64,000 nucleotides of DNA from Nitrospirales bacterium (GTDB taxonomy: Bacteria; Nitrospirota; Nitrospiria; Nitrospirales; UBA8639). The DNA is taken from assembly GCA_029261235.1 (NCBI GenBank), contig JAJDBS010000231.1, forward strand, positions 1-64,000. Direction: 5' to 3'. The notes below the pieces were generated by a model. The model saw only the letters and a list, made by a program, of their open reading frames with translations, ran no database searches and was not told where the DNA came from. Position numbers and translations under genes: made by a program. This document shows positions 2,051 to 54,519 of this stretch, piece by piece. Numbering within the stretch: the stretch's first letter is position 1; every line of letters starts with the position of its first letter.

Positions 2051-2458
2051 TTCTGTCAAATGAATTTGACAATATTATTCCTCTAGACGATTTCACAATC
2101 CGCAACCATTCTTTCTTCCTACCATTACCACCTGATAATGACAGGGCCAGCTTGAGATAACATTGGCTTTGTAAGCTTCATGATGAATTATTTCCAAAAT
2201 TCACAGCCTCGAAGGTACCTACGCTGGGCAATAATCAGCTTTTCTCGTCGGTTGTCCCAACGTGTTGTCGGTGCAGTCATTCGTATGCCGAATGTCAATA
2301 AGCTGTAGGTGGGAACATTTCCTTTCCTCTCTCGGATAACAATGCAGGTTTCAGAAGATATAGCATTTACCGAATCCATTATTCGTCGTCTAATCGTGTA
2401 GCTGCCTCAGCCAACCCAATCGAAAGGGTCTTGGGGCAAGAAGAAAAGATCTCATAGT
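2051..2458. other. Intergenic stretch without a supported gene
   Basis: Only a 63-codon minus frame (2188-2379) with no recognisable family and no clear ribosome-binding site is present. It is AT-rich toward its right end, where the Pho-box array of the next operon begins. Confidence 0.4.
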
Positions 2459-2535
2459 TCTCATGAATTTTCCATTACATTCTCATGAAATTTTAATGTC
2501 ATCCTCGCTCCATTCTCATTTTTGTTCTGTACATT
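2459..2535 (+). promoter_or_regulatory. Pho-box-like array and promoter of the polyphosphate/Pst operon
   Basis: Heptamers like TTCTCAT recur every 11 bp. CAT (or a variant) falls at 2462, 2473, 2484, 2495 (AAT), 2506 (CGC, weak) and 2517. A -10-like TACATT starts at 2530, exactly 11 bp after the last T of the array. PhoB-family regulators bind direct repeats of 7-bp elements at 11-bp spacing that take the place of a -35, so this is read as a Pho-type activated promoter. A transcript would start near 2542 and carry a leader of about 190 nt. Confidence 0.7.
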
Positions 2536-2728: not shown

Positions 2729-3421
2729 ATGCAGAAGGCCTTAGAAGCGTTTAACGTACAAACGGCCGCTGAAAGCGGTGGCCTACTCACACTCGTGTAT
2801 ATCTACCTTCTGTGTTTCGTGCTCTCCACGTTTATTGCCTTTGTGTACCAAAAGACCTTTCGAGGCTTGTCATACTCTCGCAATTACGTACAGGCCATTA
2901 TTCTCATTTCGATTGTGGCCGCGACGGTCATCCAATCAGTGGGAGACAGCCTGTCCCGAGGTATTGGCATCATGGCGGCCATGGCCATCATCCGTTTTCG
3001 TACAAATCTCAAAGATCCAAGGGATCTCTTATTTTTATTCGCAGGGGTGTCATCAGGTGTCGCGTGTGGCGCCTATTCCTTTGGTGTTGCCATTATTGGA
3101 ACGATTGCGTTTACAGCCACCGCACTTATTCTCTATTACTCGCCATTGGGGCCCACCAGTCACTTTGATGGCATGCTGCGTTTTAACATGGCGTGCGATA
3201 CGACGGAGAGCCCGCAACTCGAATCCATTCTTCAGCGTCATTGTCGGTCGTTTTCATTGGTGACCTTGCGTGAAATCTCTCAAGGGCAACGACTGGACTA
3301 TGCCTATCACATCAAAATGCGAAAAGGCATGCCCCATGCCGATTTTCTGAAAGACCTGCAATCATTACAAAGTATTCAGGCGACTAATCTGATGTTGCAA
3401 GAAGCCACAGTAGATTTATGA
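2729..3421 (+). CDS. DUF4956 integral membrane protein
   Basis: A 230-aa protein with an N-terminal membrane half (about four hydrophobic segments within residues 15-135, including the signature-like MAAMAIIRFRTNLKDPRDL) and a soluble C-terminal half of about 95 residues. DUF4956 proteins are commonly encoded next to VTC-type polyphosphate polymerases, as here (6736-7593), but their function is not established. It is the first gene of the Pho-box operon. The soluble tail could contact the polymerase or its product on the cytoplasmic side; that is inference. The Shine-Dalgarno is weak (GAGAG). Confidence 0.85.
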   Translation: MQKALEAFNVQTAAESGGLLTLVYIYLLCFVLSTFIAFVYQKTFRGLSYSRNYVQAIILISIVAATVIQSVGDSLSRGIGIMAAMAIIRFRTNLKDPRDLLFLFAGVSSGVACGAYSFGVAIIGTIAFTATALILYYSPLGPTSHFDGMLRFNMACDTTESPQLESILQRHCRSFSLVTLREISQGQRLDYAYHIKMRKGMPHADFLKDLQSLQSIQATNLMLQEATVDL

Positions 3422-3476
3422 GCGTCTAGCAGCCTGTTTTCATCGTCGTGAGATGCCAGGAAGGATACATATTTTT

Positions 3477-5483
3477 ATGCACAAAAAACTCTTAGTTTCT
3501 ATTTGGGGAATATCGATCGTCGTGATTGGATTGTTGGCCCTCGCCTTTCGTGGTGAATCTGCACATTTCTTTGGGATTACTGATGATCGAGAACAAACCA
3601 TTCTTTTCGAGTCACCAGTCGACATTGTGCAGATACGAGTCGTTGAAGGTGAACAAGTACGCCAAGGGCAATTACTCATGGAAGTACAACGGGACTCGCT
3701 GAGTTCAGGACTGGTGATCCTTGATGAACAGCTCACTGAATTAATGACTCGCGATCGTGAATCGGTTGCCACGGCACGAGCACAACTAGCGAGTCTCCGG
3801 AGCCAGCAAGAGGCTCAACAGGCCAATCTGGATTCAAAAATCCAGAGTCTCCAATCCCGCTATGACCTCAACCAAAGCTTTCTGATCCAATTGGACGGAC
3901 ATGCACCCGACCTCGATTCGAGCAACAGCCCGATACTGGCGGAGATTGAAGGCCTCACCCGAGAACGCCAACATCTGAGAGCATCATTAGAATCAAAGAT
4001 TAGTAATTTAGAAGCTCAACTCAATGCCAAGCTACGTCCCGTTGATGCCCAGGTTGCCGAACTTGAAGAACGAAAATCGGCCTTACAACATCAAGCCACC
4101 AAACTCACGATCCGGGCCGATTTTGATGGCCGGGTCGGCAGTCTATTGTTCAGGACAGGTGAAATTGTTGCTCCCTTCCAGCCCATTCTGACAGTCCACG
4201 GCTCATCCCCAGAGTATGTGAACGGCTATATCCACGAAACGGTCATTAATAGAGTCAAGCTCGGGCAACAAGTCTGGGTACAGTCGACCACATCAGGAGA
4301 AGACACCCCCTTCATTGAAAGCACGGTGGAAAGCCTGGGTACCCGCATTGTCGAATATCCAGCCCGGCTCAAGAAAAACCCTCTGGTTCAAGCCTGGGGA
4401 CGCGAAGTTGTCGTCAGGTTTTCCGGGTCACATCCATTATTGTTAGGCGAAAAAGTGATCGTCCTCCTGGACAAACCTGACTCGACGCTTACCCAAATCG
4501 TGTCTTCGGTCAACGTTCTTGGCAATGTGATGAATGTTTTTGCTGGAACTCCGGTCGAGGGTTCGCCCCCACTCCCTCCTCGGATGGAGCCATCGTTCAT
4601 TTTCTCACACGTGCCCCATATCGATCCGAAACGCATTGAAGCCTCGGGGGTGTTATGGGACCCAGAAAGCTTGAGCTTTCTGTTAATCAGCGACGAATCC
4701 TTGGATGGACAGCCTGCTCTGTATCGTATGGACCAACAGGGAAGAATCACGAATCAAGTCAAGATGCAGGGTGGACCAAAAATCGACGATCTAGAAAGTA
4801 TAAGCACCGATGGCCCATACCTCTATCTACTGGCCTCGCTCTCCATGAATAAAAAGGGAACGTTGAAAAGCAAACGTCGCCAGTTCAGCAGGCTTGAGCG
4901 AGTTGGTCCCAACATCACCTATCGCGACTCCATTGATCTCTTTCATGTCTTGGAACAAGCTGCGACAAACACTCACCATCCACCCACCGCGCAATTCCTT
5001 CAGGACGCCCTGCAATCCAAACGTATTGATATCGAAGGACATATGGTCAGGAATGGTGATCTCTTTTTAGGATTCAAAGCACCTTGGAATGGTCAAGGAC
5101 AGACCGTCATTCTCAAAATTAGGGATCTCAACAACCTCTTTTCAGGGCACATGCCACAAGCGAAAATCTGGGGAACCGTCACCTTGGTGGACTCAAAAAC
5201 CGGAGACCCTGCACGGCTATCGGACATGCTTTGGATTGATAATACCCTGTTGCTGATTGGAGCCCGCAACGATACGCAGACCTCAGTCAGTTATGTGTGG
5301 GCCTACGACCACACAAACAGCGCGTTACATGAACTGGCGGTCATTCCTAACATGAAAGCTGAAGGGATATCCCCCACTCAGCACAAACATGAATTTATGC
5401 TCGTAGCCGATGGTGGAGGAAAAACTGCCTCACGCTATATCACCATGAATTTTGAAAATCTCAGTCCCGTGGGGAGTTTGTAA
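3477..5483 (+). CDS. HlyD-type periplasmic adaptor fused to a DUF3616-like domain
   Basis: About 668 aa. One membrane anchor (residues 5-25) is followed by a lipoyl-like half-motif with VDIVQIRVVEGEQVRQGQLL, a long coiled coil (about 75-215), the returning lipoyl half (IRADFDGRVGSLLFRTGEIV) and a beta-barrel domain to about 350. This is the layout of membrane-fusion proteins that bridge inner-membrane pumps to TolC. Residues of about 385-660 add a second domain with SGVLWDPESLSFLLISDE and DDLESISTDGPYLYLLAS, resembling DUF3616-type beta-propellers. I do not know another adaptor with this tail. ATG 3477 is preferred over 3453 because GGAAGG lies upstream at 3459-3464, although 12 nt away. The stop overlaps the next start (TAATG). 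Confidence 0.75.
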   Translation: MHKKLLVSIWGISIVVIGLLALAFRGESAHFFGITDDREQTILFESPVDIVQIRVVEGEQVRQGQLLMEVQRDSLSSGLVILDEQLTELMTRDRESVATARAQLASLRSQQEAQQANLDSKIQSLQSRYDLNQSFLIQLDGHAPDLDSSNSPILAEIEGLTRERQHLRASLESKISNLEAQLNAKLRPVDAQVAELEERKSALQHQATKLTIRADFDGRVGSLLFRTGEIVAPFQPILTVHGSSPEYVNGYIHETVINRVKLGQQVWVQSTTSGEDTPFIESTVESLGTRIVEYPARLKKNPLVQAWGREVVVRFSGSHPLLLGEKVIVLLDKPDSTLTQIVSSVNVLGNVMNVFAGTPVEGSPPLPPRMEPSFIFSHVPHIDPKRIEASGVLWDPESLSFLLISDESLDGQPALYRMDQQGRITNQVKMQGGPKIDDLESISTDGPYLYLLASLSMNKKGTLKSKRRQFSRLERVGPNITYRDSIDLFHVLEQAATNTHHPPTAQFLQDALQSKRIDIEGHMVRNGDLFLGFKAPWNGQGQTVILKIRDLNNLFSGHMPQAKIWGTVTLVDSKTGDPARLSDMLWIDNTLLLIGARNDTQTSVSYVWAYDHTNSALHELAVIPNMKAEGISPTQHKHEFMLVADGGGKTASRYITMNFENLSPVGSL

Positions 5484-6733
5484 TGCTGCGAATCTTGGGT
5501 GCCGTCGTTCTAATCCTGATGTTCGCTCTGCCCAACCTGAGTCTAGCAGACAGCCTTGATGCGTATCTGCTGACAGCCTTAGACGATACCCCGCATGGGG
5601 TCGCTCAAGAGTCGGAGAAGACCGTCCATCCCGGAGTCAGTCGTTGGATCGAAGAAGCTCAGCTACGATTTCAGGCCGAAGATGATCTCAAGAATACATT
5701 TCGGAACGGCATCAAAAACAGCTACACATTGCGCGTCACCCCCAAGTACAGCACGCAATCTTCTGCCGAGCAATCCATAGACAACCTGAGCACGACACAG
5801 CGCGCTTTGGATCTTGCCCGTCTGGGGACGAAGGCACTGAAAATTCGTTACCGCATGCTGATAGATTTCTCGGAACTTCGCGCCAAGACTCTATTTGAGC
5901 AGCAACATATCAATCTTTTAAAAATTGAGGTCAACCTGAATCGCGCCCTGGCCAATACAGCAGAATTTAAACCTGAAAATTTACAGCAACTTAATTTAGA
6001 GCTCTCTCATTCCAACGCCACATTACATCTCGCGAATAAGCGCTTGCAGGCCATGCAGGAACGCATCCTGGCAGACAGCGAATTGCCGTATTCGCCAAAT
6101 ACATTGTTGAACGATGATTGGCCGCTCAGGCCACGAGCCATTGAAGAAGTATTGAGTCAGCACCAGGCAGTATTAGCTGACACGAGTACCTACCCGCAAA
6201 TCCGACAGGCACGGATCAACCTTGATTTGGCTACGGCCAGTCTGGCTATCGTGAAGACGAAGACCAGTTTGGCACTTGATCTCATCGGCATCGAATATAG
6301 CAACGAACAGCGTGACAACTCGATCGGCGTGTTATTGGGCTTCAATCTGCCAACAGGTGGAGGAGGCTCCAGATTGATTGACCGACGACACGACCGAGCC
6401 AGAGCCAGGACTGGATTCATGTTCACCCGTGATTCCGTAGCAGGTCGTATGACTGAATTACTCAGCAACCTAAAATGGAATTTCTCTGCCTGGAAGACAG
6501 ATGATACAGCTGATCAAAACATTCATACGCTGAGCGCTGAACCGACCAGAGCCCAACAACCTCAATTAGTGATTGGACTGAAGCGGCAACGTCTCGCTTT
6601 GAACCGAAGCATGTCCGCGACTCATATGCAACTCCTTCGCGACTATATTGAGGTCCTCGGTACTGCCGGGATCCTGGGTAAGGGTCCTTTGCGTAATTGG
6701 ATTAAAGTGGGCCAGCCCACACTACAGAAATAA
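5483..6733 (+). CDS. TolC-like outer-membrane factor
   Basis: A 416-aa exported protein (signal peptide through LSLADS, about residues 1-23) rich in long amphipathic helices, with a strand-like GVLLGFNLPTGGG segment. It resembles OEP/TolC-family proteins, though it is weakly conserved and slightly short. Its start overlaps the stop of the adaptor gene, so the two are translationally coupled and likely form an adaptor/outer-membrane pair. No dedicated ABC or RND pump is encoded beside them. The DUF4956 protein or the Pst system would have to provide the inner-membrane part, which is unproven. Confidence 0.65.
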   Translation: MLRILGAVVLILMFALPNLSLADSLDAYLLTALDDTPHGVAQESEKTVHPGVSRWIEEAQLRFQAEDDLKNTFRNGIKNSYTLRVTPKYSTQSSAEQSIDNLSTTQRALDLARLGTKALKIRYRMLIDFSELRAKTLFEQQHINLLKIEVNLNRALANTAEFKPENLQQLNLELSHSNATLHLANKRLQAMQERILADSELPYSPNTLLNDDWPLRPRAIEEVLSQHQAVLADTSTYPQIRQARINLDLATASLAIVKTKTSLALDLIGIEYSNEQRDNSIGVLLGFNLPTGGGGSRLIDRRHDRARARTGFMFTRDSVAGRMTELLSNLKWNFSAWKTDDTADQNIHTLSAEPTRAQQPQLVIGLKRQRLALNRSMSATHMQLLRDYIEVLGTAGILGKGPLRNWIKVGQPTLQK

Positions 6734-6735
6734 CC

Positions 6736-7593
6736 ATGGCAGAAAAAATCACACTGCCCCCTGTCTTAGAACGGTACGAACTCAAGTACCTGATACCCAT
6801 GTCCTACGTGGAACCGATCACGCAGTTTCTTGCTCCCTATTGTCAGCTTGATTATTTTTCAACCCAAGCCAAAGACGAAGACTATTTTTACCGCGTCAAC
6901 AGCTTGTACTTTGATACCCGAAATTATGAATTTCTCAAGCAACGGCTTTGGGGTCGCGATTCCCGCTTTAATATGCGCGTCCGGACCTATGGAGAGGGCA
7001 ATGAGCCACCGTATTTCATGGAGATCAAACACAAGACAGGCACGTTCGTCAAAAAATACCGAGCCACCATCCAGGGAGAAGAATGGCCATCGATTCTCAC
7101 CGATGCCCAATTCAGGCTTGCGGAGACCGAGGTCGGAAGCAATCGCCAGAACAAAGACCTGTTCATGCGCCTGGCGGTCGCCTACGCGATCGAACCCAAA
7201 ATCTACACGCAATATATTCGACGTGCCTTTTTCTCAACGGTAGACGAGTACGCACGAGTGACGATGGACCGTGACATGAAATACCGTCCCCAGGACCTCT
7301 TTCACAGCGCTGGAGATCCTTACAATCTTCTGCCTGATGGCACGTTGATTAATTACGACAACGAAACAGTCTATGCCAAATACACCTGGAGCCAGGGCAG
7401 CGTGATACTCGAGTTGAAATGCTACGTCGGACAGGTCCCCACCTGGATGGTTGACCTGATTACCTTTTTTGAACTGAAACAAGAGAGTTTTTCAAAGTAT
7501 GTGACGAGCAGTTTGGTGGCTCATTATGACAATGACATTGGCTATCTGACCGAAAGCCGCCCGACATGGAGCTACGGTGATGATGAGGATTGA
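6736..7593 (+). CDS. VTC-domain polyphosphate polymerase
   Basis: A 285-aa tunnel-fold protein with the family hallmarks: ERYELKYLIP at residues 11-20, VNSLYFDT, the basic strand MRVRTYGE, YFMEIKHKTGTFVKKYR, and a C-terminal VILELKCY with a lysine/glutamate pair. VTC-domain enzymes polymerise the gamma-phosphate of ATP into polyphosphate with Mn2+. The protein has no membrane segment or signal peptide, so it is cytoplasmic, perhaps docked on the DUF4956 protein. It lies 2 nt after the TolC-like gene and upstream of pstS, under the same Pho-type promoter, tying polyphosphate synthesis to phosphate limitation. Confidence 0.88.
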   Translation: MAEKITLPPVLERYELKYLIPMSYVEPITQFLAPYCQLDYFSTQAKDEDYFYRVNSLYFDTRNYEFLKQRLWGRDSRFNMRVRTYGEGNEPPYFMEIKHKTGTFVKKYRATIQGEEWPSILTDAQFRLAETEVGSNRQNKDLFMRLAVAYAIEPKIYTQYIRRAFFSTVDEYARVTMDRDMKYRPQDLFHSAGDPYNLLPDGTLINYDNETVYAKYTWSQGSVILELKCYVGQVPTWMVDLITFFELKQESFSKYVTSSLVAHYDNDIGYLTESRPTWSYGDDED

Positions 7594-7615: not shown

Positions 7616-8509
7616 ATGAGCAAGAAACTATTTGAAAATAATCTGTCAACCGTGATGGTACTTCTGACCATCTTGACCATGGTAGGCAGCACCCCAGTAT
7701 TCGCTCGAACGGAAATCCAAAATAAGGGGTCCGACACACTGGTGAATGTTGCCCAAGCTTGGGCTGAAGAATACGGAAAGAGACATGCCGATGTGGCCGT
7801 CGCTGTATCAGGTGGTGGGTCAGGCACTGGCATCGCCTCCATGATCAACGGCACAGTCGATATCGCCAATTCGAGTCGCAAGATGAAAAAGAAAGAGATG
7901 AGTCTTGCCAAGAAAAAAGGGCAGGACCCTCTTGAACATATCGTGGGATACGATGCCCTTGCGGTCTATACCCATTCTGACAATCCAACATTATCCATGA
8001 GTATTTCCCAACTCGCCAGCATCTATGGCCGGAACGACACCCTCAAAAGCTGGGGGGACCTTGGACTGAAAATCCCGGGCTGCCAGAGCGATGAGATCGT
8101 TGTCGTGAGTCGCCAAAACAATTCAGGCACCTATGCATATTTCAAAAAAGCGGTACTGGGAAAAGGCAAATACCGCATGGGCACATTGGACATGCATGGC
8201 TCAAAAGACGTCGTGGACCTCGTCGAAAACACTCCCTGTGCGATCGGATACAGCGGATTGGCGTATGCAACCGAGCATGTGAAATTAGTCTGTATCAGGA
8301 ACGGTAACGACGACTCTTGCGTGAATCCATCAGTGAAAACGGCTAGTGACAAAACCTATCCTATTGCTCGCCCCTTGTTCATGTATACGAATGGCCAGCC
8401 AACCGGTCAGATCAAACGATATTTGGACTGGATTCTGAGTGATGAAGGACAATGTATCCTTTCACGTAAAGGTTATGCACCGATCAAAAAAATTTCGTGC
8501 AGTGAATAA
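7616..8509 (+). CDS. pstS: Phosphate-binding periplasmic protein PstS
   Basis: 297 aa with a signal peptide ending near PVFARTE. Phosphate-loop motifs are visible: KGSDTL near the mature N-terminus, SGGGSGTGIASMINGTVDIA and SRQNNSGTYAYF, plus the GYSGLAYA hinge. It delivers phosphate to PstC-PstA. The ATG at 7616 has a perfect AGGAGG 9 nt upstream. The longer frame from 7577 overlaps the polymerase gene and lacks such a site. It is encoded between the polyphosphate polymerase and phoU in the same operon. Confidence 0.9.
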   Translation: MSKKLFENNLSTVMVLLTILTMVGSTPVFARTEIQNKGSDTLVNVAQAWAEEYGKRHADVAVAVSGGGSGTGIASMINGTVDIANSSRKMKKKEMSLAKKKGQDPLEHIVGYDALAVYTHSDNPTLSMSISQLASIYGRNDTLKSWGDLGLKIPGCQSDEIVVVSRQNNSGTYAYFKKAVLGKGKYRMGTLDMHGSKDVVDLVENTPCAIGYSGLAYATEHVKLVCIRNGNDDSCVNPSVKTASDKTYPIARPLFMYTNGQPTGQIKRYLDWILSDEGQCILSRKGYAPIKKISCSE

Positions 8510-8524
8510 CGAGGAGATCTTCAG

Positions 8525-9625
8525 ATGGGCTACTACGAACAACGCCTTGAAAACGACCTGGCAAAAATAAAGAATGCGCTGATTGGCATCGCCGACAAAG
8601 TCGAGACGGCACTCAAACATGCGGTCGATTCGATGTTAAGCGGAAACGACGCATTGGCCTATGACACCGTACTCGGGGATCGTCGGATCAACCGCCTCGT
8701 GATGCAGTTAGATGACATGTGTCTGGGTTTTATTGCCTTACATTTGCCGGCTGCCGGGCACTTACGCTTCATTGCCTCATCCATGCGCTTGGCTATTTTG
8801 TTGGAACGCATAGGCGACTATTCCGCAACGATCTGCCGTGAAGCCGTTCAATTACCTCAACCACCGGAAGGAACAATCGCGCAGGCTGTGGCCTTATTGG
8901 CCAATAATTCACGCCATGCGTTACATCAGGCTATTGCTGCCTTCAGACAAAACAATCTTGCATTGGCACATACCACCATGCAGCTTTCTACTCAGGCCGA
9001 GCGGACGTTCGATCAGGCCATCGAGGCCTTGAACAAAGACTACATACTTGACAGACAGTCACTGTTTTATCTCCTACTTGCCCTGAGTATGTTAGTCCGT
9101 GTGGCCGCCCAAGCTAAAAATATCTGTGAGGAAACCATCTTTATCAACACAGGGAAAAGTAAGCCGGCCAAGCGCTATACCATTTTATTTGTCGATGAGG
9201 ACAACAGCTGCCTCAGCCAAATAGCAGAAGCCATTACACGAAAAAAATTTTCGGGATGCGGAACCTATTCAAGCGCGGGTCGAAACGCTGCAGACCATTT
9301 AGATCTCAACATGGTCAAATTTCTGGAAGGCAAGGGTATACAGATGGCGAAGGCACAACCCAAAAATCTCGATTCCCTCGCCTATCAATCAGGAGAATAC
9401 TATTTAATTATCAGCCTGCAAGGCCCCGTGAAATCATACATGAAACAGGTCCCGTTTCACTCGATTGCCCTGGAATGGAATCTCGGCGTTCCCCAGAAGA
9501 CCTCGAAAGATGACAGTGCCGGGAACCAACATCACATAGAAGATCTGTATCGCACGCTCGGGCTATTGACGACTGACTTAATGGACACACTCTGTGGCGA
9601 AGACATCGTCTGTTACGAAGGGTAA
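8525..9625 (+). CDS. phoU: PhoU fused to an inactive ArsC/LMW-phosphatase-like domain
   Basis: 366 aa. Residues 1-210 are a PhoU repeat protein (GHLRFIASSMRLAILLERIGDYSA carries the conserved ExxGDY-type motif; second repeat near 155-205). Residues 216-345 follow the low-molecular-weight phosphatase/thioredoxin-type ArsC fold: ILFVDEDNSCLSQIAEA, SSAGRNAA, and a WNLGVP near the end. In active enzymes the first motif reads VC(T/V)xNSC/AR. Here the nucleophilic Cys is Asp224 and the Arg is Leu230, so catalysis should be lost. The domain may bind phosphate or a partner for sensing. PhoU itself restrains Pst and the PhoR kinase. It is in the pst operon, 15 nt after pstS. Confidence 0.85.
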   Translation: MGYYEQRLENDLAKIKNALIGIADKVETALKHAVDSMLSGNDALAYDTVLGDRRINRLVMQLDDMCLGFIALHLPAAGHLRFIASSMRLAILLERIGDYSATICREAVQLPQPPEGTIAQAVALLANNSRHALHQAIAAFRQNNLALAHTTMQLSTQAERTFDQAIEALNKDYILDRQSLFYLLLALSMLVRVAAQAKNICEETIFINTGKSKPAKRYTILFVDEDNSCLSQIAEAITRKKFSGCGTYSSAGRNAADHLDLNMVKFLEGKGIQMAKAQPKNLDSLAYQSGEYYLIISLQGPVKSYMKQVPFHSIALEWNLGVPQKTSKDDSAGNQHHIEDLYRTLGLLTTDLMDTLCGEDIVCYEG

Positions 9626-9631
9626 AACATT

Positions 9632-10549
9632 GTGGATGCCGTAGAAGTACACCGTCACAGCTTTCAACGAAATCGGGATTGGTATATTGATCAATTCGTT
9701 CAACACCTGGTCTTTCTCGCAGGGATTTCGGCTATCGTGCTCATCATTGGCATCTTCTTTTTCATTACCAAGGAAGGCATGGCCTTTCTGTTCGGTGATG
9801 TCAGCATGAGTGAGGTGTTTGGATCAATGTTTTGGGAGCCATCGGATGAAGATGCGCCTGACTATGGAATCCTTGCATTAATTGCCGGGACAGCCAGTGT
9901 CAGCGGGTTGGCCATGATTGTGGCCATCCCATTTTCATTAGGCGCAGCTATTTTCATTGCGGAATTCAGTTCCGGAACCACCCGTGAATGGCTGAAGGTG
10001 CTCATCGAGTTGCTGGCTGCCATACCCTCGGTGGTCTGGGGATTTATCGGGCTGTCCATCTTGAATCCGCTCATCATTGATTTGTTCGACGTGCCCGTCG
10101 GGTTGAATGTCCTAAATGCTGGCTTGATCTTAGGGCTGATGGCGGCTCCAATTATGACCTCCATTGCCGAAGACGCGCTCAAGGCAGTTCCTGACCGGTA
10201 TCGAGAGGCCGCCGAAGCCATGGGAGCCACACGGTGGCAGATCACCTTCAGGGTGGTCTTGCCGGCCGCAAAAAACGGACTGCTTGGAGCGGTCCTGTTG
10301 GGAGTCGGGCGTGGGTTTGGTGAAACGATGGCCGTACTCATGGCAACCGGACATTCCGTGAATATACCTGGGAGTGTCTTTGATTCGGTCCGTGCCCTCA
10401 CGGCAACGATTGCCGCAGAGTTGGGTGAGACCGCTCGCGGCTCAGAGCATTATGGTGCATTATTTGCCATCGGAATCTTCTTGTTCGTGATCACCTTCGT
10501 GATCAATCTTTCGGCCGACCTGATCGTACGAGGAGTCAAGGAAAGCTAA
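9632..10549 (+). CDS. pstC: Phosphate ABC transporter permease PstC
   Basis: 305-aa inner-membrane permease with about six membrane segments. The conserved EAA-loop region (DRYREAAEAMGATRWQITF) contacts the ATPase. It begins with GTG at 9632, only 6 nt after phoU, and its stop overlaps the ATG of pstA. With PstA it forms the channel fed by PstS. Confidence 0.9.
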   Translation: MDAVEVHRHSFQRNRDWYIDQFVQHLVFLAGISAIVLIIGIFFFITKEGMAFLFGDVSMSEVFGSMFWEPSDEDAPDYGILALIAGTASVSGLAMIVAIPFSLGAAIFIAEFSSGTTREWLKVLIELLAAIPSVVWGFIGLSILNPLIIDLFDVPVGLNVLNAGLILGLMAAPIMTSIAEDALKAVPDRYREAAEAMGATRWQITFRVVLPAAKNGLLGAVLLGVGRGFGETMAVLMATGHSVNIPGSVFDSVRALTATIAAELGETARGSEHYGALFAIGIFLFVITFVINLSADLIVRGVKES

Positions 10550-11424
10550 TGCACCACTTTGCAACCACTGGGATTAACCAACGAAATTCACGGACTCAGG
10601 AATTGTTCCGGCTGTTATTCATGATGATGACAGTATTACTTGTCCTTCCCGTCCTCATCATCATGGTGACCTTAATCTACAAAGGCGGGGCAATCGTCAC
10701 ACTCGACTTTCTCTTATCCAATCCGCTTGACGGCATGACGGCCGGAGGAATTTTTCCGGCGCTATTCGGCACAATCGGGTTAGTGACCGTCGCCCTCCTG
10801 GTCTCAGTCCCGATAGGCGTCGCGGCGGCCATTTATCTCAGTGAGTATGCATCTGATACCTGGCTGACCCGTTTGATTAATTTGGCCATCATCAACCTGG
10901 CAGGCGTCCCCTCTATCGTCCATGCCCTCTTTGGTGTGGGAGCCTTTGTCATCTTCTTTCGCTTTGGAACGAGTATCTTAGCTGCCAGTTGTACCCTTGC
11001 CGTGATGACCCTACCGGTGGTGATTGTGGCAACACGAGAATCCCTTCAATCGGTCCCGATGGCATTTCGGGAAGCCTGTTGGAACATGGGAGCTACTCGT
11101 TGGCAGACCATAAGACGTATCGTGCTTCCCAATGCCATTTCCGGAATTCTGACAGGTGTGATTTTGGAAGTTTCCCGTACGGCTGGGGAAACCGCACCGA
11201 TCATGTTTACGGGAGCGGTGTTTTTTACCCCCTTTCTCCCTCAAAGTGTCTTCGACCAAACCATGGCTTTGTCCTTACACCTCTTTGTGCTCTCGACTCA
11301 GGTGCCGGGAGTCTCTGAGGCGCTTCCCTACGGCGTGGCTCTGGTCCTGATTTCAATCGTTCTCTTGATGAACAGTGCATCCATCGGTTTTCGTATGTAT
11401 TTGCGAGGTCAGAAAAAATGGTAG
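10549..11424 (+). CDS. pstA: Phosphate ABC transporter permease PstA
   Basis: 291-aa permease with six predicted membrane segments and the EAA loop MAFREACWNMGATRWQTI followed by RRIVLPNA. ATG 10549 overlaps the pstC stop (TAATG), and the 3' end overlaps the following ATPase gene by 7 nt, so the three are translationally coupled. Confidence 0.9.
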   Translation: MHHFATTGINQRNSRTQELFRLLFMMMTVLLVLPVLIIMVTLIYKGGAIVTLDFLLSNPLDGMTAGGIFPALFGTIGLVTVALLVSVPIGVAAAIYLSEYASDTWLTRLINLAIINLAGVPSIVHALFGVGAFVIFFRFGTSILAASCTLAVMTLPVVIVATRESLQSVPMAFREACWNMGATRWQTIRRIVLPNAISGILTGVILEVSRTAGETAPIMFTGAVFFTPFLPQSVFDQTMALSLHLFVLSTQVPGVSEALPYGVALVLISIVLLMNSASIGFRMYLRGQKKW

Positions 11425-12245
11425 TGGCAGACTCAAACGTACGCACACTTTCTGATCCTGAATCCACATGGCATCAACGGTTCCATTCCTCTCCGATGAA
11501 GATTGAGGTGAACGATCTGACCATTCGTTATGGTGACACAACGATTCTCAGTGGAGTCAACCTGAATATTCGGAAGAACGAAATTTTTGGCATTATCGGC
11601 CCGGCGAATTCGGGAAAAACATCATTACTCAAAGCTCTGAATCGGATGGATGAGTTTACTCCCGGCATGAAGGTCACAGGAGACATTCGCGTGAATGGTC
11701 TAGATATTCGGCATGTGAAAAATGTGTACGGGCTTCGCCGCAGTATCGGAGTGGTCTTTCCCCTACCGGTGGGGTTGCCGTTGACGGTGTTCGAAAACGT
11801 CGCATTGGCTCCTAGGCTTGGAGGAATGAATAATCGAGCCGAGCTGAACATAATCGTGGAGCGTTGCCTGAGAAGAGCCGCACTTTGGGATGAAGTCAAG
11901 GATCGACTCAATTCGTTAGGCAGCTTACTCTCCGGTGGGCAGCAACAGCGGCTGACCATTGCTCGTGCCTTATCACAGGAGCCGGATTTGCTCATGTTGG
12001 ATGAGTTTTCCATTGCTGTTGACCCTGTGACCACCATGCGTATCGAGGATATCTTGAAAGAACTCCGGAAGGAGATGACGATCATCCTTGTCACCAATTT
12101 GGTCCAACAAGCCCGGCGATTAGCCGACCGAACAGCGTTTTTCCTCAACGGAGAATGTGTTGAAATCGGGGTCACTGAATGTCTGTTTACCGGACAGGTA
12201 CAGGATCAACGAACACAGGACTATCTGAGCGGAAGGTTTGGGTGA
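11418..12245 (+). CDS. pstB: PstB-like ATPase 1, intact signature but altered Q- and H-loops
   Basis: 275-aa ABC ATPase. Walker A is GPANSGKTS (61-69), the signature LSGGQQQR (171-178) is canonical, and Walker B LLMLDE ends in Glu196. Two catalytic positions differ from PstB: the Q-loop reads VFPLP with Pro115 in place of Gln, and the H-switch reads VTNLVQQ with Asn227 in place of His. The D-loop is SIAVDP instead of SALDP. Such a subunit can bind ATP and lend its signature to a partner but is unlikely to hydrolyse at its own site. It carries an extra N-terminal 26 residues. Next to it is a second PstB with the opposite defect. Confidence 0.87.
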   Translation: MVVADSNVRTLSDPESTWHQRFHSSPMKIEVNDLTIRYGDTTILSGVNLNIRKNEIFGIIGPANSGKTSLLKALNRMDEFTPGMKVTGDIRVNGLDIRHVKNVYGLRRSIGVVFPLPVGLPLTVFENVALAPRLGGMNNRAELNIIVERCLRRAALWDEVKDRLNSLGSLLSGGQQQRLTIARALSQEPDLLMLDEFSIAVDPVTTMRIEDILKELRKEMTIILVTNLVQQARRLADRTAFFLNGECVEIGVTECLFTGQVQDQRTQDYLSGRFG

Positions 12246-12246
12246 C

Positions 12247-13014
12247 GTGAGTTCTGATTTCGCTATTGCGGCAACCAACGTCAATTTTTGGTACGGAAGT
12301 TTTCAAGCGCTGTTCGATGTGAACTTGAAAATCCGACGAGGGAAAGTCACATCAATGATCGGTCCATCAGGATGCGGGAAATCCACGTTCCTGAGAAGTG
12401 TGAACCGAATTAATGAACGGATCGACAACATTCGCATTCAGGGATCGATTCACGTCCTGGACAAGAATATCCTTGACCCCGATGTGGAGTTGGTACAAGT
12501 CCGCAAACACATCGGTATGGTGTTTCAACGTCCGAATCCTCTACCCATTTCGATTCGGGAAAACATCCTCTTTGGATATAAGATCCACATGAGTACTCGT
12601 GCATCGAAACGTCAGCAAGATGACATCGTTGAACAGGCATTGCAGCAGGTACTGCTCTGGGATCAAGTGAAAGACCGTCTTCACCATAAGGCCACCGGCC
12701 TCTCCCTTGAGGAACAACAAAAACTCTGTATCGCCAGGCTCCTTCCCATCAAGCCTAGCGTCTTACTCATGGACGAACCCTGTTCAGCCCTTGACCCCAA
12801 AGGCACCGAGGCGGTTGAGGAACTGATTTGGGAGCTGCACAATACGTTTACAATCTTGATTGTCACGCACAATATGGCCCAAGCTCGTCGGGCAAGTGAA
12901 GAATGTATCTTCATGCTCATGGGAAAGGTGATGGAGCACACGCCAACACAGGAGATGTTCGTGACCCCGAAGAAACAAGAAACGGCCGACTATATTGAAG
13001 GCAAATATGGGTAA
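12247..13014 (+). CDS. pstB: PstB-like ATPase 2, intact catalytic residues but degenerate signature
   Basis: 255 aa from GTG 12247, chosen because GGAAGG (12231-12236) is well spaced and it directly follows the upstream stop; TTG 12238 is the alternative. Walker A GPSGCGKST, Q-loop VFQRPNP, Walker B LLMDEP and H-switch VTHNMAQA are all canonical PstB. The signature, normally LSGGQQQR, reads LSLEEQQK (about residues 152-159). Paired with ATPase 1 it would give one canonical composite site (its own Walker A/B/His plus the partner's LSGGQ) and one degenerate site. It is the last gene of the operon. Confidence 0.87.
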   Translation: MSSDFAIAATNVNFWYGSFQALFDVNLKIRRGKVTSMIGPSGCGKSTFLRSVNRINERIDNIRIQGSIHVLDKNILDPDVELVQVRKHIGMVFQRPNPLPISIRENILFGYKIHMSTRASKRQQDDIVEQALQQVLLWDQVKDRLHHKATGLSLEEQQKLCIARLLPIKPSVLLMDEPCSALDPKGTEAVEELIWELHNTFTILIVTHNMAQARRASEECIFMLMGKVMEHTPTQEMFVTPKKQETADYIEGKYG

Positions 13015-18004: not shown

Positions 18005-18072
18005 TTCTACAGGATGGTCTCATGGCGAAAACCCTCTCCCTCAAGAAAAAGAGTCGAAGTTTTTTAGGTAAT

Positions 18073-18116
18073 TCTCATCTCTCTTTCATGGATTTCTCAT
18101 TTTTCCTCATTAAGGT
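18073..18116 (+). promoter_or_regulatory. Pho-box-like array and promoter 2
   Basis: TCTCAT/TTTCAT/TCTCAT units have CAT at 18076, 18087 and 18098, at exact 11-bp steps. A further CAT at 18108 is one base off phase. A TAAGGT -10-like hexamer starts at 18111, 11 bp after the last in-phase T, the same geometry as at 2530. It would drive 18254 and probably the run of plus-strand genes through the sensor kinase ending at 24383. Confidence 0.6.
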
Positions 18117-35894: not shown

Positions 35895-35903
35895 AGGCCC
35901 TTT

Positions 35904-35957
35904 CTCATGAAATTTTAATGTTTTTCTCATTATTTTCTCATTTTTTTCTGTTAACCA
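35904..35957 (+). promoter_or_regulatory. Pho-box-like array 3, before a receiver-only regulator
   Basis: Units at exact 11-bp steps: CAT at 35906, AAT at 35917, CAT at 35928 and 35939. The TCTCATGAAATTTTAATG block is identical to one in the array at 2481-2498. At the expected -10 position (35952) the sequence is TAACCA, a weak match. It precedes 36103 by about 150 nt. Confidence 0.6.
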
Positions 35958-36471: not shown

Positions 36472-36720
36472 GGCTTTAATATCCTGAAGGAAGCTCTGCC
36501 CTGTTCCTCCCTGAAAAAAATGCCTGTGTGAGAGACGGTTGAGTTCACTGTTGGTCATCTAAAATCCTGCGCCTCTTTTTTCACTCACCAATTCCTGCTG
36601 ATCCAAACTTACACAACGACGACTACCAACCTGCTTGCCACACACCACATCGGTCGTATTCCACCGAAAAATCTCCAGACCCCACACTCAGAACACGACC
36701 CGAATTTGTTAATCACAATT

Positions 36721-36775
36721 TCTCATCAACTTTTCATGTCATGTTCACGGCATTCTCATTTTCATCCACTATCAT
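36721..36775 (+). promoter_or_regulatory. Pho-box-like array 4 and promoter of UDP-glucose dehydrogenase
   Basis: Units at exact 11-bp steps: CAT at 36724 and 36735, CAC at 36746, CAT at 36757. TATCAT at 36770-36775 is a good -10, again starting 11 bp after the last T of the array. The 36472-36720 stretch before it shows nothing else that I can support. Confidence 0.7.
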
Positions 36776-36884
36776 TACGTCTAACTGATTGAATAATAAT
36801 TTTCCTTTTGGAAACCCATTACGCATTTTGGCGTCTAACAAGACACACACTTTCACTCACTCAATTTTGAAAAAGGAGGATGGC

Positions 36885-38255
36885 ATGAACATCAGTATTA
36901 TTGGGACCGGATATGTGGGACTCGTCACCGGAGCCTGTTTCGCCAAATTCGGAGTGACGGTCACCTGTATGGACACCAATCCCCATCGCATTCAACAGCT
37001 CCAGTCAGGGGAATTGCCGTTTTTTGAACCTGGCCTCTTGGAGTTGGTCAAGAAAAATGTTCAGGCCAATCGACTTCATTTTACCTCGGATCTCCAACAG
37101 GCCGTGGACAATGCTTTGGTAATTGTCATCGCCGTCGGCACCCCATCCTGCGACGATGGGTCTGCTGACCTCTCCATGGTGGATCATGTTGCCAAGTCTA
37201 TTGGAGAACGTATGAATGGCTATAAAGTGGTCGTGACAAAATCAACCGTTCCCGTTGGGACGGCAGATCGCATTCGTGAAATGATTCGACTGCACCAACC
37301 ATTTCCCTGCAGATTCGACGTGGTTTCTAATCCCGAATTTCTTCGTGAGGGTTCGGCCATTGAAGACTGCCTGCATCCCAATCGGGTGGTCATCGGCACT
37401 GATAGTCCTCAAGCTATTGCCATCATGAAAGATTTGTATCGTCCACTTTATCTCATTGAAACACCGATTGTGATTACCTCCACGCAAACCTCCGAATTGA
37501 TTAAATATGCTGCCAATGCCTTTTTGGCTACCAAGATCTCCTTTATCAATGAAATCGCCAACCTCTGCGAACGAGTTCAGGCGGACGTCCAGGTCGTGGC
37601 CAAAGGCATGGGACTGGATAACCGGATCGGAAGCAAGTTTCTACATGCAGGTCCTGGATTCGGCGGATCCTGCTTCGGAAAAGATACCGCGGCACTCATT
37701 CATCTCGGAGAGAGCGTTGGCTCTCCCATGCACATCACTCGTGCCACCAAACACGTCAATGATCTCCAAAGGCAGGACATGGTGGCTAAAATCCAAACAG
37801 CTCTTGGCGACCTTACCGGCAAAACCATTGGGTTTCTGGGCCTGTCTTTTAAACCCAATACGGATGACATCCGGGATTCTCCCGCTCTTGCCATCGCCTC
37901 TGCCCTCTTGGATCACGGAGCCACCGTTCAAGCCTATGACCCGGAGGCTCTTGAGGAAGCCTGTCTATCTCTCCCTGAATTACGTCCCTGCCAGGATTCC
38001 TACGAAGCGATGGAACAAGCCGATGCCCTCGTGTTGGCGACTGAATGGAATCAATTCAGAAATTTGGATTTGAAACGAATCAAATCTTTATTACGCCAAC
38101 CTATCATGGTGGACCTTCGAAATGTTTACGATCCACCTACATTGAAAGACATGGGCTTCACCTACATTTCCGTTGGTCGAGCACCAGTTGGCTCCATAGC
38201 CTCCAGTGAAGTGACAGAACTCTCTGCAGGAAGATTTGTGGGAGTTCTTTCCTAA
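36885..38255 (+). CDS. UDP-glucose 6-dehydrogenase
   Basis: 456 aa, full length for the family. Rossmann motif GTGYVGL near the start, STVPVGTA, SNPEFLREGSAI, catalytic Cys263 in GPGFGGSCFGKD, and the C-terminal NAD/UDP-binding part with FKPNTDDIRDSP. It oxidises UDP-glucose to UDP-glucuronate, a precursor for acidic polysaccharides. ATG 36885 has a perfect AAAGGAGG; the frame open from 36789 has no such site. A hairpin follows at 38276. Confidence 0.92.
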   Translation: MNISIIGTGYVGLVTGACFAKFGVTVTCMDTNPHRIQQLQSGELPFFEPGLLELVKKNVQANRLHFTSDLQQAVDNALVIVIAVGTPSCDDGSADLSMVDHVAKSIGERMNGYKVVVTKSTVPVGTADRIREMIRLHQPFPCRFDVVSNPEFLREGSAIEDCLHPNRVVIGTDSPQAIAIMKDLYRPLYLIETPIVITSTQTSELIKYAANAFLATKISFINEIANLCERVQADVQVVAKGMGLDNRIGSKFLHAGPGFGGSCFGKDTAALIHLGESVGSPMHITRATKHVNDLQRQDMVAKIQTALGDLTGKTIGFLGLSFKPNTDDIRDSPALAIASALLDHGATVQAYDPEALEEACLSLPELRPCQDSYEAMEQADALVLATEWNQFRNLDLKRIKSLLRQPIMVDLRNVYDPPTLKDMGFTYISVGRAPVGSIASSEVTELSAGRFVGVLS

Positions 38256-38275
38256 TGGTTAGTCAATTTTCTACT

Positions 38276-38294
38276 GAGGGAATGGCCTTCCCTC
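38276..38294 (+). terminator. Likely intrinsic terminator after UDP-glucose dehydrogenase
   Basis: GAGGGAA and TTCCCTC form a 7-bp perfect stem around TGGCC, followed by CTTTCT. It stands just before the next Pho-box array, so it would separate two Pho-type transcription units. Confidence 0.55.
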
Positions 38295-38298
38295 CTTT

Positions 38299-38374
38299 CT
38301 CATCAAATTCTCATGTATTTCTCATCAGCCTTTCATCTCATCCTCACGGCATCCTCATATGCCCTTGGTACAGT
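38299..38374 (+). promoter_or_regulatory. Pho-box-like array 5, six repeats
   Basis: The longest array: CAT at 38301, 38312, 38323, 38334, CAC at 38345 and CAT at 38356, every 11 bp without a miss. TACAGT starts at 38369, 11 bp after the last T. It would drive 38411 and the long exopolysaccharide operon that follows without an obvious terminator. Confidence 0.75.
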
Positions 38375-38410
38375 GTGTACCATTACCAATTCGTATAGGG
38401 AATAAAGCCC

Positions 38411-38863
38411 ATGAACATTCTACTGCTAGACGATGACTTGAGGATTTTACGATTTTTAAAGCGAGGTCTCGAGGCGGAATCCCATACCGTGTCTACGGCC
38501 ACTTCCCACATCCAGGGATGGGAATTATTACAAATCTGCAAGTTTGACCTGGCCATCCTGGATGTGTTCCTGGGGACAGAAAATGGATTGGACTTTTGCC
38601 GACAACTTCGACAACAACAGCACACCGTCCCAGTCTTGATGCTGACCGCCAAAGATTCCACGGAGATGTCCCTCGAATGCCAAGAAGCCGGCGCGAATGG
38701 CTATCTGCCTAAACCCTTTGCCTTTGATGACCTGATAGCCAATGTTGAAAAATTGACCAGTACGCCGCCGCAATCCTCCTCTTTCTTTTCAGAAGTGCCC
38801 GGTTTGGCCATGACAGCAAATAATTTCGGAATCGGTTTACTATTCCTCAATTGGATCGTCTAA
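38411..38863 (+). CDS. Truncated PhoB-like regulator, receiver only
   Basis: 150 aa. The N-terminus (NILLLDDDLRILRFLKRGLEAE) is clearly derived from the regulators at 34331 and 35214. Asp51 (LAILDVFLG), LTAKD and LPKPFAFDD are kept. The winged helix is replaced by about 35 unrelated residues ending LLFLNWIV. It can be phosphorylated but not bind DNA in the usual way, so it might compete for the kinases' phosphoryl groups. Confidence 0.82.
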   Translation: MNILLLDDDLRILRFLKRGLEAESHTVSTATSHIQGWELLQICKFDLAILDVFLGTENGLDFCRQLRQQQHTVPVLMLTAKDSTEMSLECQEAGANGYLPKPFAFDDLIANVEKLTSTPPQSSSFFSEVPGLAMTANNFGIGLLFLNWIV

Positions 38864-38887
38864 CCGAAAGAGAGCAGGTCAAAAACC

Positions 38888-40210
38888 ATGAAAATCCATC
38901 CACTCAACGAAATTTGCCATCAGAACACTAAACGGCTGATCTTTTATTCCCATGATACCTTTGGGTTAGGAAATATTCGGCGAACTCTCTCCATTTGCCA
39001 ATTCCTCAAGGAATCGATTCCCGACCTTTCCATTCTGATTATTTCTGGATCGCCCATGATTCATAGTTTTCGAATTCCCGAAGGGATTGACTACATTAAA
39101 CTTCCCTGTCTCACTCGAACGGAGAACAATGGCTATTCTGCGAAATTTCTTGCCGAAGACCCTCAGAACCTATTCAAGCTGCGGGCTGATCTCATCCTCT
39201 GTGCAACGGCAAACTTTAAACCTGATGTCGTGATGGTGGACAAGAAGCCATATGGTGTTCACAACGAGTTAGCCCCGACCTTGCGCTATATGAAAGAACA
39301 TCTCTCGGCAACAAAACTAACCCTTGTCCTTCGCGATATCTTGGATACTCCTGAGGTGACCCAAGAAATCTGGGAAAAGAATGGTTTCTATGATGCGATT
39401 GAAACGTACTATGACGACGTCGCCATTCTGGGAACTCCGGAAGTGTTTGATGCACGAGAGGAATATGCATTTTCGCCAGCGATGTGTGAAAAAACTCGGT
39501 ATGTTGGGTACCTCAGAAGAGAACCAGGCCTGACAGATCGTACAGCAATCAGAGCTGAATTGGGGTTAACCGACCAGGATCGGTTTGTACTCGTCACTGC
39601 AGGTGGTGGAGAGGATGGTGCGCAAGTATTTGAAGAATACCTGAAAGGTATGAATCTTCTACCTCAACCAGAACGTCCCAAAAGTCTTCTGATCTTTGGT
39701 CCAGAAATGCAACAAGAGGAACAAGAACGGCTCAAGCACTGGGCCAACCGCTATAGCAAAGTTCAAACCCTGTCCTTCACGAGCGATCTCATGAGCTATA
39801 TGAATGCGGCCGACCTCGTTGTGTCCATGGGCGGATATGGAACCATATGTGAAATCCTCTCACTGAACAAGCAAGCTGTTATCATTCCGCGAGTCAAACC
39901 TGTTGAAGAGCAATGGATTCGGGCAAGTCGTATGGCAGAGCTCAACCTGATTCATACCATCCACCCAGACGATTTGACGCCGGAACATCTGATGGCGACA
40001 GTGCAAGCGGTATTGGGACCAAACACCAATAACCTCAAGAAATCTTTTCAACTCAGTTTAGACGCTCTCCCCAACTTAGCCATGTCCGTTCTTAATCATT
40101 TAATGAAAGGCAGCTGGCAAGAAAGTGTTGTTCCTCGAGAAGATCCTCAGGTTCTCCCAGCAGTGGCGTCAACATATTGTGGTCTTTCCGATCGGCAACT
40201 AGCATTCTAA
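38888..40210 (+). CDS. GT-B glycosyltransferase, MurG/GT28-like
   Basis: 440 aa. The N-terminal lobe starts with RLIFYSHDTFGLGNIRRTLS, carrying the glycine-rich donor loop of GT28-type enzymes. The C-terminal lobe shows VTAGGGEDGAQVFEEYL and VVSMGGYGTICEILSLNKQAVIIP, which bind the nucleotide sugar. It is related to the N-terminal half of the fusion protein at 49019. The acceptor is unknown. First enzyme gene of the exopolysaccharide operon. Confidence 0.8.
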   Translation: MKIHPLNEICHQNTKRLIFYSHDTFGLGNIRRTLSICQFLKESIPDLSILIISGSPMIHSFRIPEGIDYIKLPCLTRTENNGYSAKFLAEDPQNLFKLRADLILCATANFKPDVVMVDKKPYGVHNELAPTLRYMKEHLSATKLTLVLRDILDTPEVTQEIWEKNGFYDAIETYYDDVAILGTPEVFDAREEYAFSPAMCEKTRYVGYLRREPGLTDRTAIRAELGLTDQDRFVLVTAGGGEDGAQVFEEYLKGMNLLPQPERPKSLLIFGPEMQQEEQERLKHWANRYSKVQTLSFTSDLMSYMNAADLVVSMGGYGTICEILSLNKQAVIIPRVKPVEEQWIRASRMAELNLIHTIHPDDLTPEHLMATVQAVLGPNTNNLKKSFQLSLDALPNLAMSVLNHLMKGSWQESVVPREDPQVLPAVASTYCGLSDRQLAF

Positions 40211-40218
40211 GAGAGTTC

Positions 40219-41412
40219 ATGATGATGACTGATCGCTCAAAAAAAATTGCCTATATCGTCAAAATTTTTCCGAAACTTTCGGAGACGTTTATTCTTCAAG
40301 AAATATTAGAGCTGGAACGCCTCGGCCTTAATCTGGTGATTTTGTCTTTACGCCCTCCCACCGACGTAGATACGCACCCACATGTTCAACAACTCAAGGC
40401 TCCAGTGTTGTATGCGCCTGTTGTATTAAACGAGGGCAAGGGGAATGGCATTCAACAATCCTTGTGGACCGAATGGGTCACTGAGAAAGTCCATGAATAT
40501 GGCATCACACATCTTCATGCCCATTATGTCACCGAACCTACCGATATTGCCTTTCAAGTACAGGAAAAAACTGGAGTTTCCTATAGCTTTACCACTCATG
40601 CCAAAGATCTTTTTCTTTCATCCAAGGAAGATTTATCACGGAAAGTGAGTGGAGCACAGTTTGCTCTGACCTGTACCGAATACAACAAAGACTATCTGGA
40701 ACAGTGCGTTCAATCCGCTACACCTGTTTACCGGGTCTATCATGGGGTGGATCTGGATGTGTTCCAATCCAACCGTCACCAAATTTCTCATGAAGATGGA
40801 AAGCGTCCGTTAATTCTGAGTATCGGACGGTTCCGCCCTAAAAAGGGTTTCCCCACATTAATTCAAGCCTGCGCCACATTAAAAAATACTGGGCATGATT
40901 TTCAGTGCGTGCTGGTAGGCTATGGTCCACTTGAAAAAGACCTGAAACAGATGATCCACCAATTGAACGTGAATGATTGTGTCCGCCTCACCGGAAAGGT
41001 TCCACAGGATGGCATCCTTGACTGGTACCGGAAGGCCTCTGTCTTCGTGTTGCCCTGTCAAATTGCCGAAGATGGTGACCGCGATGGAATTCCGAATGTC
41101 CTTGTTGAAGCCATGGCCATGGGGCTCCCCGTGGTGTCCACTGCTATCGCCAGCATCCCTGAGCTTATCCATGATGGTCACAACGGAATATTAGCTGCTC
41201 CTCATCATTATGACTCCTTGGCTAAAGCGTTAAGTTGGCTACTTCAAGACCCAGACCGTGGCAGGCCCTTGGGCATCGCGGCCAGAAAAACTGTGGAAAA
41301 GGATTTCTGTGTATCCAGAAACATTCGCGTAATTTACGATCTTTTGAAACCTCTGACATCACATGCCCACATGAAGTCTTTGAAGACTCTACTCCAGCAG
41401 GTCCCATTATGA
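40219..41412 (+). CDS. Family-4-like glycosyltransferase
   Basis: 397 aa GT-B enzyme. N-lobe IAYIVKIFPKLSETFILQEI and HLHAHYVTEPTDIA; C-lobe YHGVDLDVF, SIGRFRPKKGFPTLIQA and the GT4 E-x7-E motif region DGDRDGIPNVLVEAMAMGLP. ATG 40219 is the first of three in-frame ATGs just after the preceding stop. Its stop overlaps the next start (ATGA). Confidence 0.87.
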   Translation: MMMTDRSKKIAYIVKIFPKLSETFILQEILELERLGLNLVILSLRPPTDVDTHPHVQQLKAPVLYAPVVLNEGKGNGIQQSLWTEWVTEKVHEYGITHLHAHYVTEPTDIAFQVQEKTGVSYSFTTHAKDLFLSSKEDLSRKVSGAQFALTCTEYNKDYLEQCVQSATPVYRVYHGVDLDVFQSNRHQISHEDGKRPLILSIGRFRPKKGFPTLIQACATLKNTGHDFQCVLVGYGPLEKDLKQMIHQLNVNDCVRLTGKVPQDGILDWYRKASVFVLPCQIAEDGDRDGIPNVLVEAMAMGLPVVSTAIASIPELIHDGHNGILAAPHHYDSLAKALSWLLQDPDRGRPLGIAARKTVEKDFCVSRNIRVIYDLLKPLTSHAHMKSLKTLLQQVPL

Positions 41413-42863: not shown

Positions 42864-42876
42864 TAGGGAAGTCACA

Positions 42877-44880: not shown

Positions 44881-44943
44881 TGCCCAACGCGCTTTACAAT
44901 AAAAATTGTTTGACCAACGCCATAGGATAGAACGACACCGATC

Positions 44944-46407: not shown

Positions 46408-46408
46408 G

Positions 46409-47611: not shown

Positions 47612-47628
47612 AGTGGTGATGGATAACG

Positions 47629-49005: not shown

Positions 49006-49018
49006 TCTTGAAGCCAAG

Positions 49019-51034: not shown

Positions 51035-51042
51035 TATTTCCA

Positions 51043-52854: not shown

Positions 52855-53015
52855 GAAACAAAGGGCCAGACATTTCCCAGAAACACGGCAATTCTTCGAA
52901 AGCCTATCTATATGGGCAACAGAAACTTTCCCGATTCCCTCACCCACCTAGACCTTTCGGAAAGGTTGAGGGCATGGTGGAATTCATTACGGAACAGTTG
53001 GAAACGGATTCATAA

Positions 53016-54479: not shown

Positions 54480-54519
54480 CCTTTTATTTTATTGTCTACA
54501 AAAACTTTACCCAAAACCG

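Follow-up and report, generated by a model that had tools for sequence, protein, structure and literature searches.

How polyphosphate leaves Gram-negative cells is unexplained even where its exit is well documented, and the question is raised by a locus in the draft genome (82.8% complete, 264 contigs) of a Nitrospirales bacterium, of which a stretch of 64,000 nucleotides (contig JAJDBS010000231.1, positions 1 to 64,000; hereafter the window) was analysed. A head-to-tail block on the + strand encodes, in order, a DUF4956 membrane protein (2729..3421), a HlyD/EmrA-type periplasmic adaptor (3453..5483), a TolC-fold outer-membrane protein (5483..6733) and a VTC-type polyphosphate polymerase (6736..7593), which together offer a full candidate set of polymerase, inner-membrane partner, adaptor and channel. 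The block is read here as an exporter of polyphosphate that is coupled to the synthase and spans the Gram-negative envelope, with a probability of about one half. An earlier description based on the letters and translations of the DNA (the sequence-only reading) had already placed these four genes side by side, and their coordinates and junctions were verified, with Pfam matches for DUF4956, the adaptor and VTC. The first gap measures 31 nt, or 55 nt if the adaptor begins at its second ATG (3477), which is kept in a related genome (G031); the adaptor and TolC-like genes overlap in a TAATG junction at 5483, and 2 nt separate the TolC-like and VTC genes. It was also correctly stated that the four genes include no separate pump; a beta-propeller on the adaptor, a phosphate-uptake (pst) operon downstream and an 11-bp repeat array upstream had been overlooked.

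The grouping of these genes is far beyond chance and recurs in other phyla. The sequence-only reading had proposed a search for the same gene order elsewhere, and the complete block was found both in a second Nitrospirales metagenome-assembled genome (MAG) of the same family (G031, JAJDBM010000049) and in Gammaproteobacteria. Identities between the window and G031 are 92% for VTC, 93% for DUF4956, 68% for the adaptor and 55% for the TolC-like protein. In G031, a two-component system precedes the block and pst does not follow it, which indicates that the unit consists of the four genes, with pst as a local neighbour. In Gammaproteobacteria, the four genes are often accompanied by a PiT phosphate transporter: the order is DUF4956, adaptor, TolC, PiT, VTC in L037 and L039, PiT stands after VTC in L036, L176 and L179 have the block without PiT, and in genome G332 the block is split across two contigs (DUF4956-adaptor-TolC-DUF47 and PiT-VTC). 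In Verrucomicrobiota and Planctomycetota the arrangement is VTC-DUF4956-adaptor, often then TolC. There, DUF4956 adjoins VTC on the same strand in 38/40 and 36/42 loci, respectively, fractions that are biased in that these loci are the better-scoring VTC matches. Many of the genomes are MAGs, and several loci stop at contig ends. Overall, an adjacent adaptor was found in 45/88 VTC-DUF4956 loci, and 85/89 junctions among VTC, DUF4956 and adaptor genes are shorter than 50 nt.

Furthermore, the adaptor is inherited together with the polymerase. Of the 53 rows in one clade of the VTC tree (support 99/96), 50 are adaptor-linked members from four phyla, and the adaptor label changes 5 times, compared with 33.7 in shuffles that treat related loci as independent; these labels were themselves derived from the neighbourhood calls, and L038 was labelled from the other contig of its genome. 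A chance neighbourhood was ruled out by this tree together with the recurrence of the grouping in other phyla. The sequence-only reading had named as evidence against itself any adaptor and TolC-like genes that occur apart from the polymerase; these were sought and not found: the adaptor subfamily occurs in 3/369 gammaproteobacterial genomes, always beside DUF4956/VTC. Similarly, across about 110 sampled loci, 57/57 adaptor matches lie at most three genes from VTC or DUF4956, the profile having been grown from this adaptor family so that it may miss ordinary HlyD proteins. Among 80 genes flanking adaptor loci, no recurrent pump or cargo gene was found; the commonest family is PHO4/PiT (4), and ABC_tran appears once. 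These observations bear on the explanation that the adaptor and TolC-like protein serve ordinary efflux or type I secretion with a pump encoded elsewhere, and merely neighbour the polymerase. It is common for a pump or TolC protein to be encoded apart, and the adaptor resembles EmrA, but an adaptor that follows one VTC clade across four phyla, stays close to VTC/DUF4956 wherever it was matched and has almost no pump genes in its flanks makes this explanation very improbable.

The VTC protein (285 aa) carries VTC as its sole Pfam domain (PF09359, 1.4e-41; 143.1 bits compared with a curated cut-off of 23); it is soluble, with no hydrophobic segment, and has neither the SPX nor the transmembrane (TM) domain of a eukaryotic-type polymerase subunit. 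The bacterial family profile matches yeast Vtc4 (E 1.6e-20), and residues aligned with Vtc4 K200, R264, R266, K281, K294, R361, R373, E426, K428 and K458 are conserved among 16 bacterial members. R264, R266 and E426 are the residues that were changed to inactivate Vtc4 in a cryo-EM study (PMC9911596); in the protein of the window they correspond to R81, R83 and E226. By alignment, the bacterial protein has the catalytic residues of a synthase, which points to polyphosphate synthesis as its activity. An inward system, in which external polyphosphate or phosphate would be scavenged through the channel, is hardly probable in view of these synthase residues and of the direction of HlyD-TolC assemblies, all of which work outward to our knowledge; linked inorganic phosphate (Pi) importers are what speaks for it. 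No PPK1 or PPX match was found in the approximately 250 kb of the source genome examined. The VTC proteins of the window and G031 nest inside a gammaproteobacterial branch (100/99), and VTC is rare in Nitrospirota (2/198), so that the Nitrospirota block was likely acquired by transfer from Gammaproteobacteria. Viral contigs searched with the VTC alignment gave no match, and plasmid searches returned distant matches only with VTC and ordinary HlyD proteins only with the adaptor.

The DUF4956 protein (PF16316, 2.6e-11) is the proposed inner-membrane conduit. Hydropathy indicates four hydrophobic segments followed by a soluble C-terminal part, and G80, R89-F90-R91, G110 and G114 are invariant in 17 family members. 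In the yeast VTC complex, synthesis is coupled to membrane translocation via a TM channel lined by basic residues (PMC9911596). From the association of DUF4956 with VTC and from its conserved arginines, we infer a comparable conduit role. No relative was found when solved structures were searched with DUF4956 by sequence; an alignment with the MgtC/SapB family (hhalign probability 39%, E 3e-4, 118 columns) is weak, though suggestive, and built on small profiles.

The two envelope components were assigned largely by fold. The adaptor (HlyD_D23, PF16576, 2.9e-8) has one N-terminal TM segment followed by a long hairpin whose two helices span about 68 and 55 residues; the top foldseek matches of the adaptor are EmrA and MacA. 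For the TolC-like protein, which has a signal peptide, the Pfam scan gave no match; nevertheless, an AlphaFold model from eight homologues (mean predicted local distance difference test, pLDDT, 81) shows the TolC order of two strands, long helices, two strands and long helices, with TolC, ST50, CusC and OprM as best structural matches (E down to 6.4e-11, for TolC). Its family matched no solved structure by sequence, although the fold matches, and its profile aligns with OEP-family proteins of verrucomicrobial loci over 367 columns (E 1.3e-15), where 6/7 members match PF02321 (OEP). The C-terminal 290 or so residues of the adaptor (about 390-676; nucleotides ~4620-5480) form a beta-propeller closest to the C-terminal domain of YjiK (Z 19.9, 224 residues, root-mean-square deviation 3.2), with further fold matches to glutaminyl cyclases and human apyrase (Z 17.4); the fold alone gives no function. 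SdiA-regulated, phytase-like and DUF3616 propellers, to which YjiK belongs, share this fold, whereas the adaptor copy is fused and lies under the Pfam curated cut-offs (phytase-like PF13449, 18.1 against 27.6 bits; DUF3616, 19.5 against 20.6 bits). In L036 (Thiotrichaceae), an adaptor without propeller is followed by a distinct gene for a phytase-like protein that begins like a lipoprotein (PF13449, 3.5e-41), and in G332 (L038) an SdiA-regulated propeller gene stands after VTC; being fused in one place and separate in others, the propeller is a recurring accessory.

In the proposed mechanism, the cytoplasmic VTC domain would polymerise the gamma-phosphate of ATP into a chain, and DUF4956 would take up the nascent chain and conduct it across the inner membrane, the part played by TM helices in yeast VTC. 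The HlyD-type adaptor would link DUF4956/VTC to a TolC-fold trimer, and the chain would cross the periplasm and the outer membrane to the surface or medium. Co-encoded Pi transporters (Pst here, PiT in several Gammaproteobacteria) would replace or recover phosphate, and the probable task of the periplasmic propeller, whether fused or the product of a nearby gene, is to bind, gate or trim the polymer. With an adaptor found only with VTC/DUF4956, one VTC clade and no recurrent pump, polymer export is the most economical reading. The proposal of the sequence-only reading that a polymer crosses the envelope is partly supported: the association and the components are shown, while polyphosphate as the cargo, DUF4956 as the conduit and outward transport are putative. 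More generally, and a little more tentatively than for the block itself, a secretion system can be envisaged in which a polymerase and a small membrane protein replace the pump of HlyD-TolC systems and push the growing chain through both membranes; such a system would be old and common to at least four phyla.

Several points weigh against export to the outside. A TolC-like gene lies directly beside the adaptor in 25/53 adaptor loci; in the other half or so, the polymer could stay periplasmic or use a TolC encoded elsewhere. CotH replaces the adaptor in other loci, so the VTC-DUF4956 core is not dedicated to outer-membrane crossing. In addition, the channel role of DUF4956 is drawn from association and conserved arginines, with no solved relative by sequence behind it, and no TolC channel is known to us to carry a long polyanion. 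It is conceivable, though unlikely, that polyphosphate goes no further than the periplasm, which would then be a phosphate reserve drained through Pst/PiT, like the yeast vacuole or the acidocalcisome, with the adaptor and channel releasing breakdown products or anchoring the envelope. The missing TolC neighbours would fit such a store, as would the repeated presence of Pi importers in the cluster (Pst in the window, PHO4/PiT in L036-L039, with a DUF47 (PhoU_div) gene in L182) and a periplasmic propeller sharing its fold with apyrase, which is either part of the adaptor or, as in L036, a phytase-like lipoprotein with a gene close by. However, storage needs no conduit to the outside, and a TolC-fold family protein directly follows the adaptor in 8/8 Nitrospirota and gammaproteobacterial loci of the subfamily and in many Verrucomicrobiota.

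The distribution of CotH and the genes elsewhere in the window bear on another possibility, namely that VTC-DUF4956 supplies polyphosphate, or a phosphate signal, which energises or modifies some other cargo of the adaptor and channel, such as an exopolysaccharide or a surface protein. CotH, counted with phmmer seeds, is found in 26/88 VTC-DUF4956 loci, and a sister class pairs VTC-DUF4956 with CotH kinases without an adaptor (24 loci); a Gram-positive CotH-polymerase-DUF4956 set accompanies pel exopolysaccharide operons (PMC7112168), and one 11-bp array is common to the polyphosphate operon and the exopolysaccharide genes of the window. Against this helper role, the adaptor class has no recurrent cargo gene at its side, the exopolysaccharide genes of the window have their own ATP-binding cassette (ABC) protein and AlgE-like porin, CotH gave no match near the block in the window, and CotH and the adaptor almost exclude each other, only 2 loci having both (Fisher p 7e-8, related loci again being treated as independent). 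We consider it improbable, slightly more so than periplasmic storage.

Returning to polyphosphate export, the block can be set beside several known systems. The eukaryotic VTC complex (Vtc1/Vtc3/Vtc4) shares the polymerase domain and catalytic residues, an adjoining membrane partner and the proposed coupling of synthesis to translocation, whereas in the window the polymerase lacks SPX and TM domains, DUF4956 replaces the Vtc TM domain, and an adaptor and outer-membrane channel are added. Tripartite HlyD/TolC exporters (EmrAB-TolC, MacAB-TolC, type I secretion) likewise co-encode an EmrA/MacA-like adaptor with a TolC-fold protein; unlike them, the block has a polymerase and DUF4956 instead of an ABC, MFS or RND pump, and a propeller on its adaptor. 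The Gram-positive pel-operon set has the same polymerase-DUF4956 core, which in the window lies in one operon two genes apart, but CotH and DUF4832 stand in place of adaptor and channel, in hosts without an outer membrane (PMC7112168). The predicted outcome, polyphosphate outside a Gram-negative outer membrane, resembles the pseudo-capsule of Neisseria gonorrhoeae, which unlike the block depends on PPK1/PPK2 and for which it was noted that other gene products may carry polyphosphate across the outer membrane (PMC10237660). In the literature searched, no paper pairs a polyphosphate polymerase with HlyD, and the conserved association between a VTC polymerase and an adaptor and channel that span the envelope is undescribed there. 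If the export reading is true, the bacterial VTC family gains a role beyond storage, its DUF4956 partner is explained, and the locus could account for the polyphosphate coat of some bacteria; the candidate set can be transferred to a laboratory strain and is testable.

Upstream of the block, at a distance of 210-270 bp, stands a direct-repeat array of the form TTCTCAT-N4 (2458..2519, + strand; units at 2458, 2469, 2480, 2491 and 2513). Five such arrays were found in the window, all on the + strand upstream of genes: besides 2458-2519, they lie at 18072-18100, 35902-35952, 36720-36759 and 38297-38347, and the three-unit pattern gives 10 matches at these 5 places compared with 0.03 expected. In order of position, the arrays stand before the polyphosphate operon, an uncharacterised gene of 172 aa, a gene for a response regulator, one for UDP-glucose dehydrogenase and another response-regulator gene, which heads glycosyltransferase genes. 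The 11-bp spacing is that of OmpR/PhoB-type sites, and two OmpR-type regulators are encoded at 34331 and 35214; judged from the repeat pattern, the array is probably a binding site for a response regulator of this type. A local regulon may join the polyphosphate/pst operon to the exopolysaccharide genes and be switched on with exopolysaccharide production or phosphate limitation. The array was not found in 186 kb of other contigs of the source genome, and it is absent both ahead of the operon in G031 and from the gammaproteobacterial loci, so this regulation is not common to relatives. The exopolysaccharide-type cluster (36789-54479) encodes UDP-glucose dehydrogenase, glycosyltransferases, a heparinase-like protein, an AlgE-like outer-membrane protein (Alginate_exp) and an exporter of the ABC type. 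Within the cluster, a row of several APH-like kinase genes and a nucleotidyltransferase-kinase-like fusion were also seen (44944-49005 and 54346-56142), the APH match having been checked for 44944-46407 only.

Downstream, the block runs directly into an operon ordered pstS-phoU-pstC-pstA-pstB-pstB on the + strand, whose ABC genes encode importers. PstS (7616..8509; PF12849 4.2e-41, TIGR02136 1.8e-67) begins 22 nt after VTC, and a two-domain PhoU (8525..9625; PF01895 1.1e-19) is fused to a domain resembling low-molecular-weight phosphotyrosine phosphatase (PF01451 3.4e-6). PstC, PstA and the two PstB proteins (9632..13014; PF00528 and PF00005 matches) are encoded by overlapping or near-touching open reading frames and probably share the operon with pstS and phoU. 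The first PstB keeps the ABC signature LSGGQ and the second (12238-13014) has a degenerate LSLEE; to judge by these motifs, the two are possibly an asymmetric ATPase pair. Among the other Gram-negative loci, a second VTC-DUF4956 class (L128, L089, L173, L174, L178 and others) carries large CotH kinase and beta-helix proteins and sometimes a TPR protein; exported polyphosphate could there be the phosphate donor for an extracytoplasmic CotH kinase. Finally, in one verrucomicrobial locus (L101:5539-6927), a gene of the phosphate-selective porin O/P family directly follows VTC-DUF4956.

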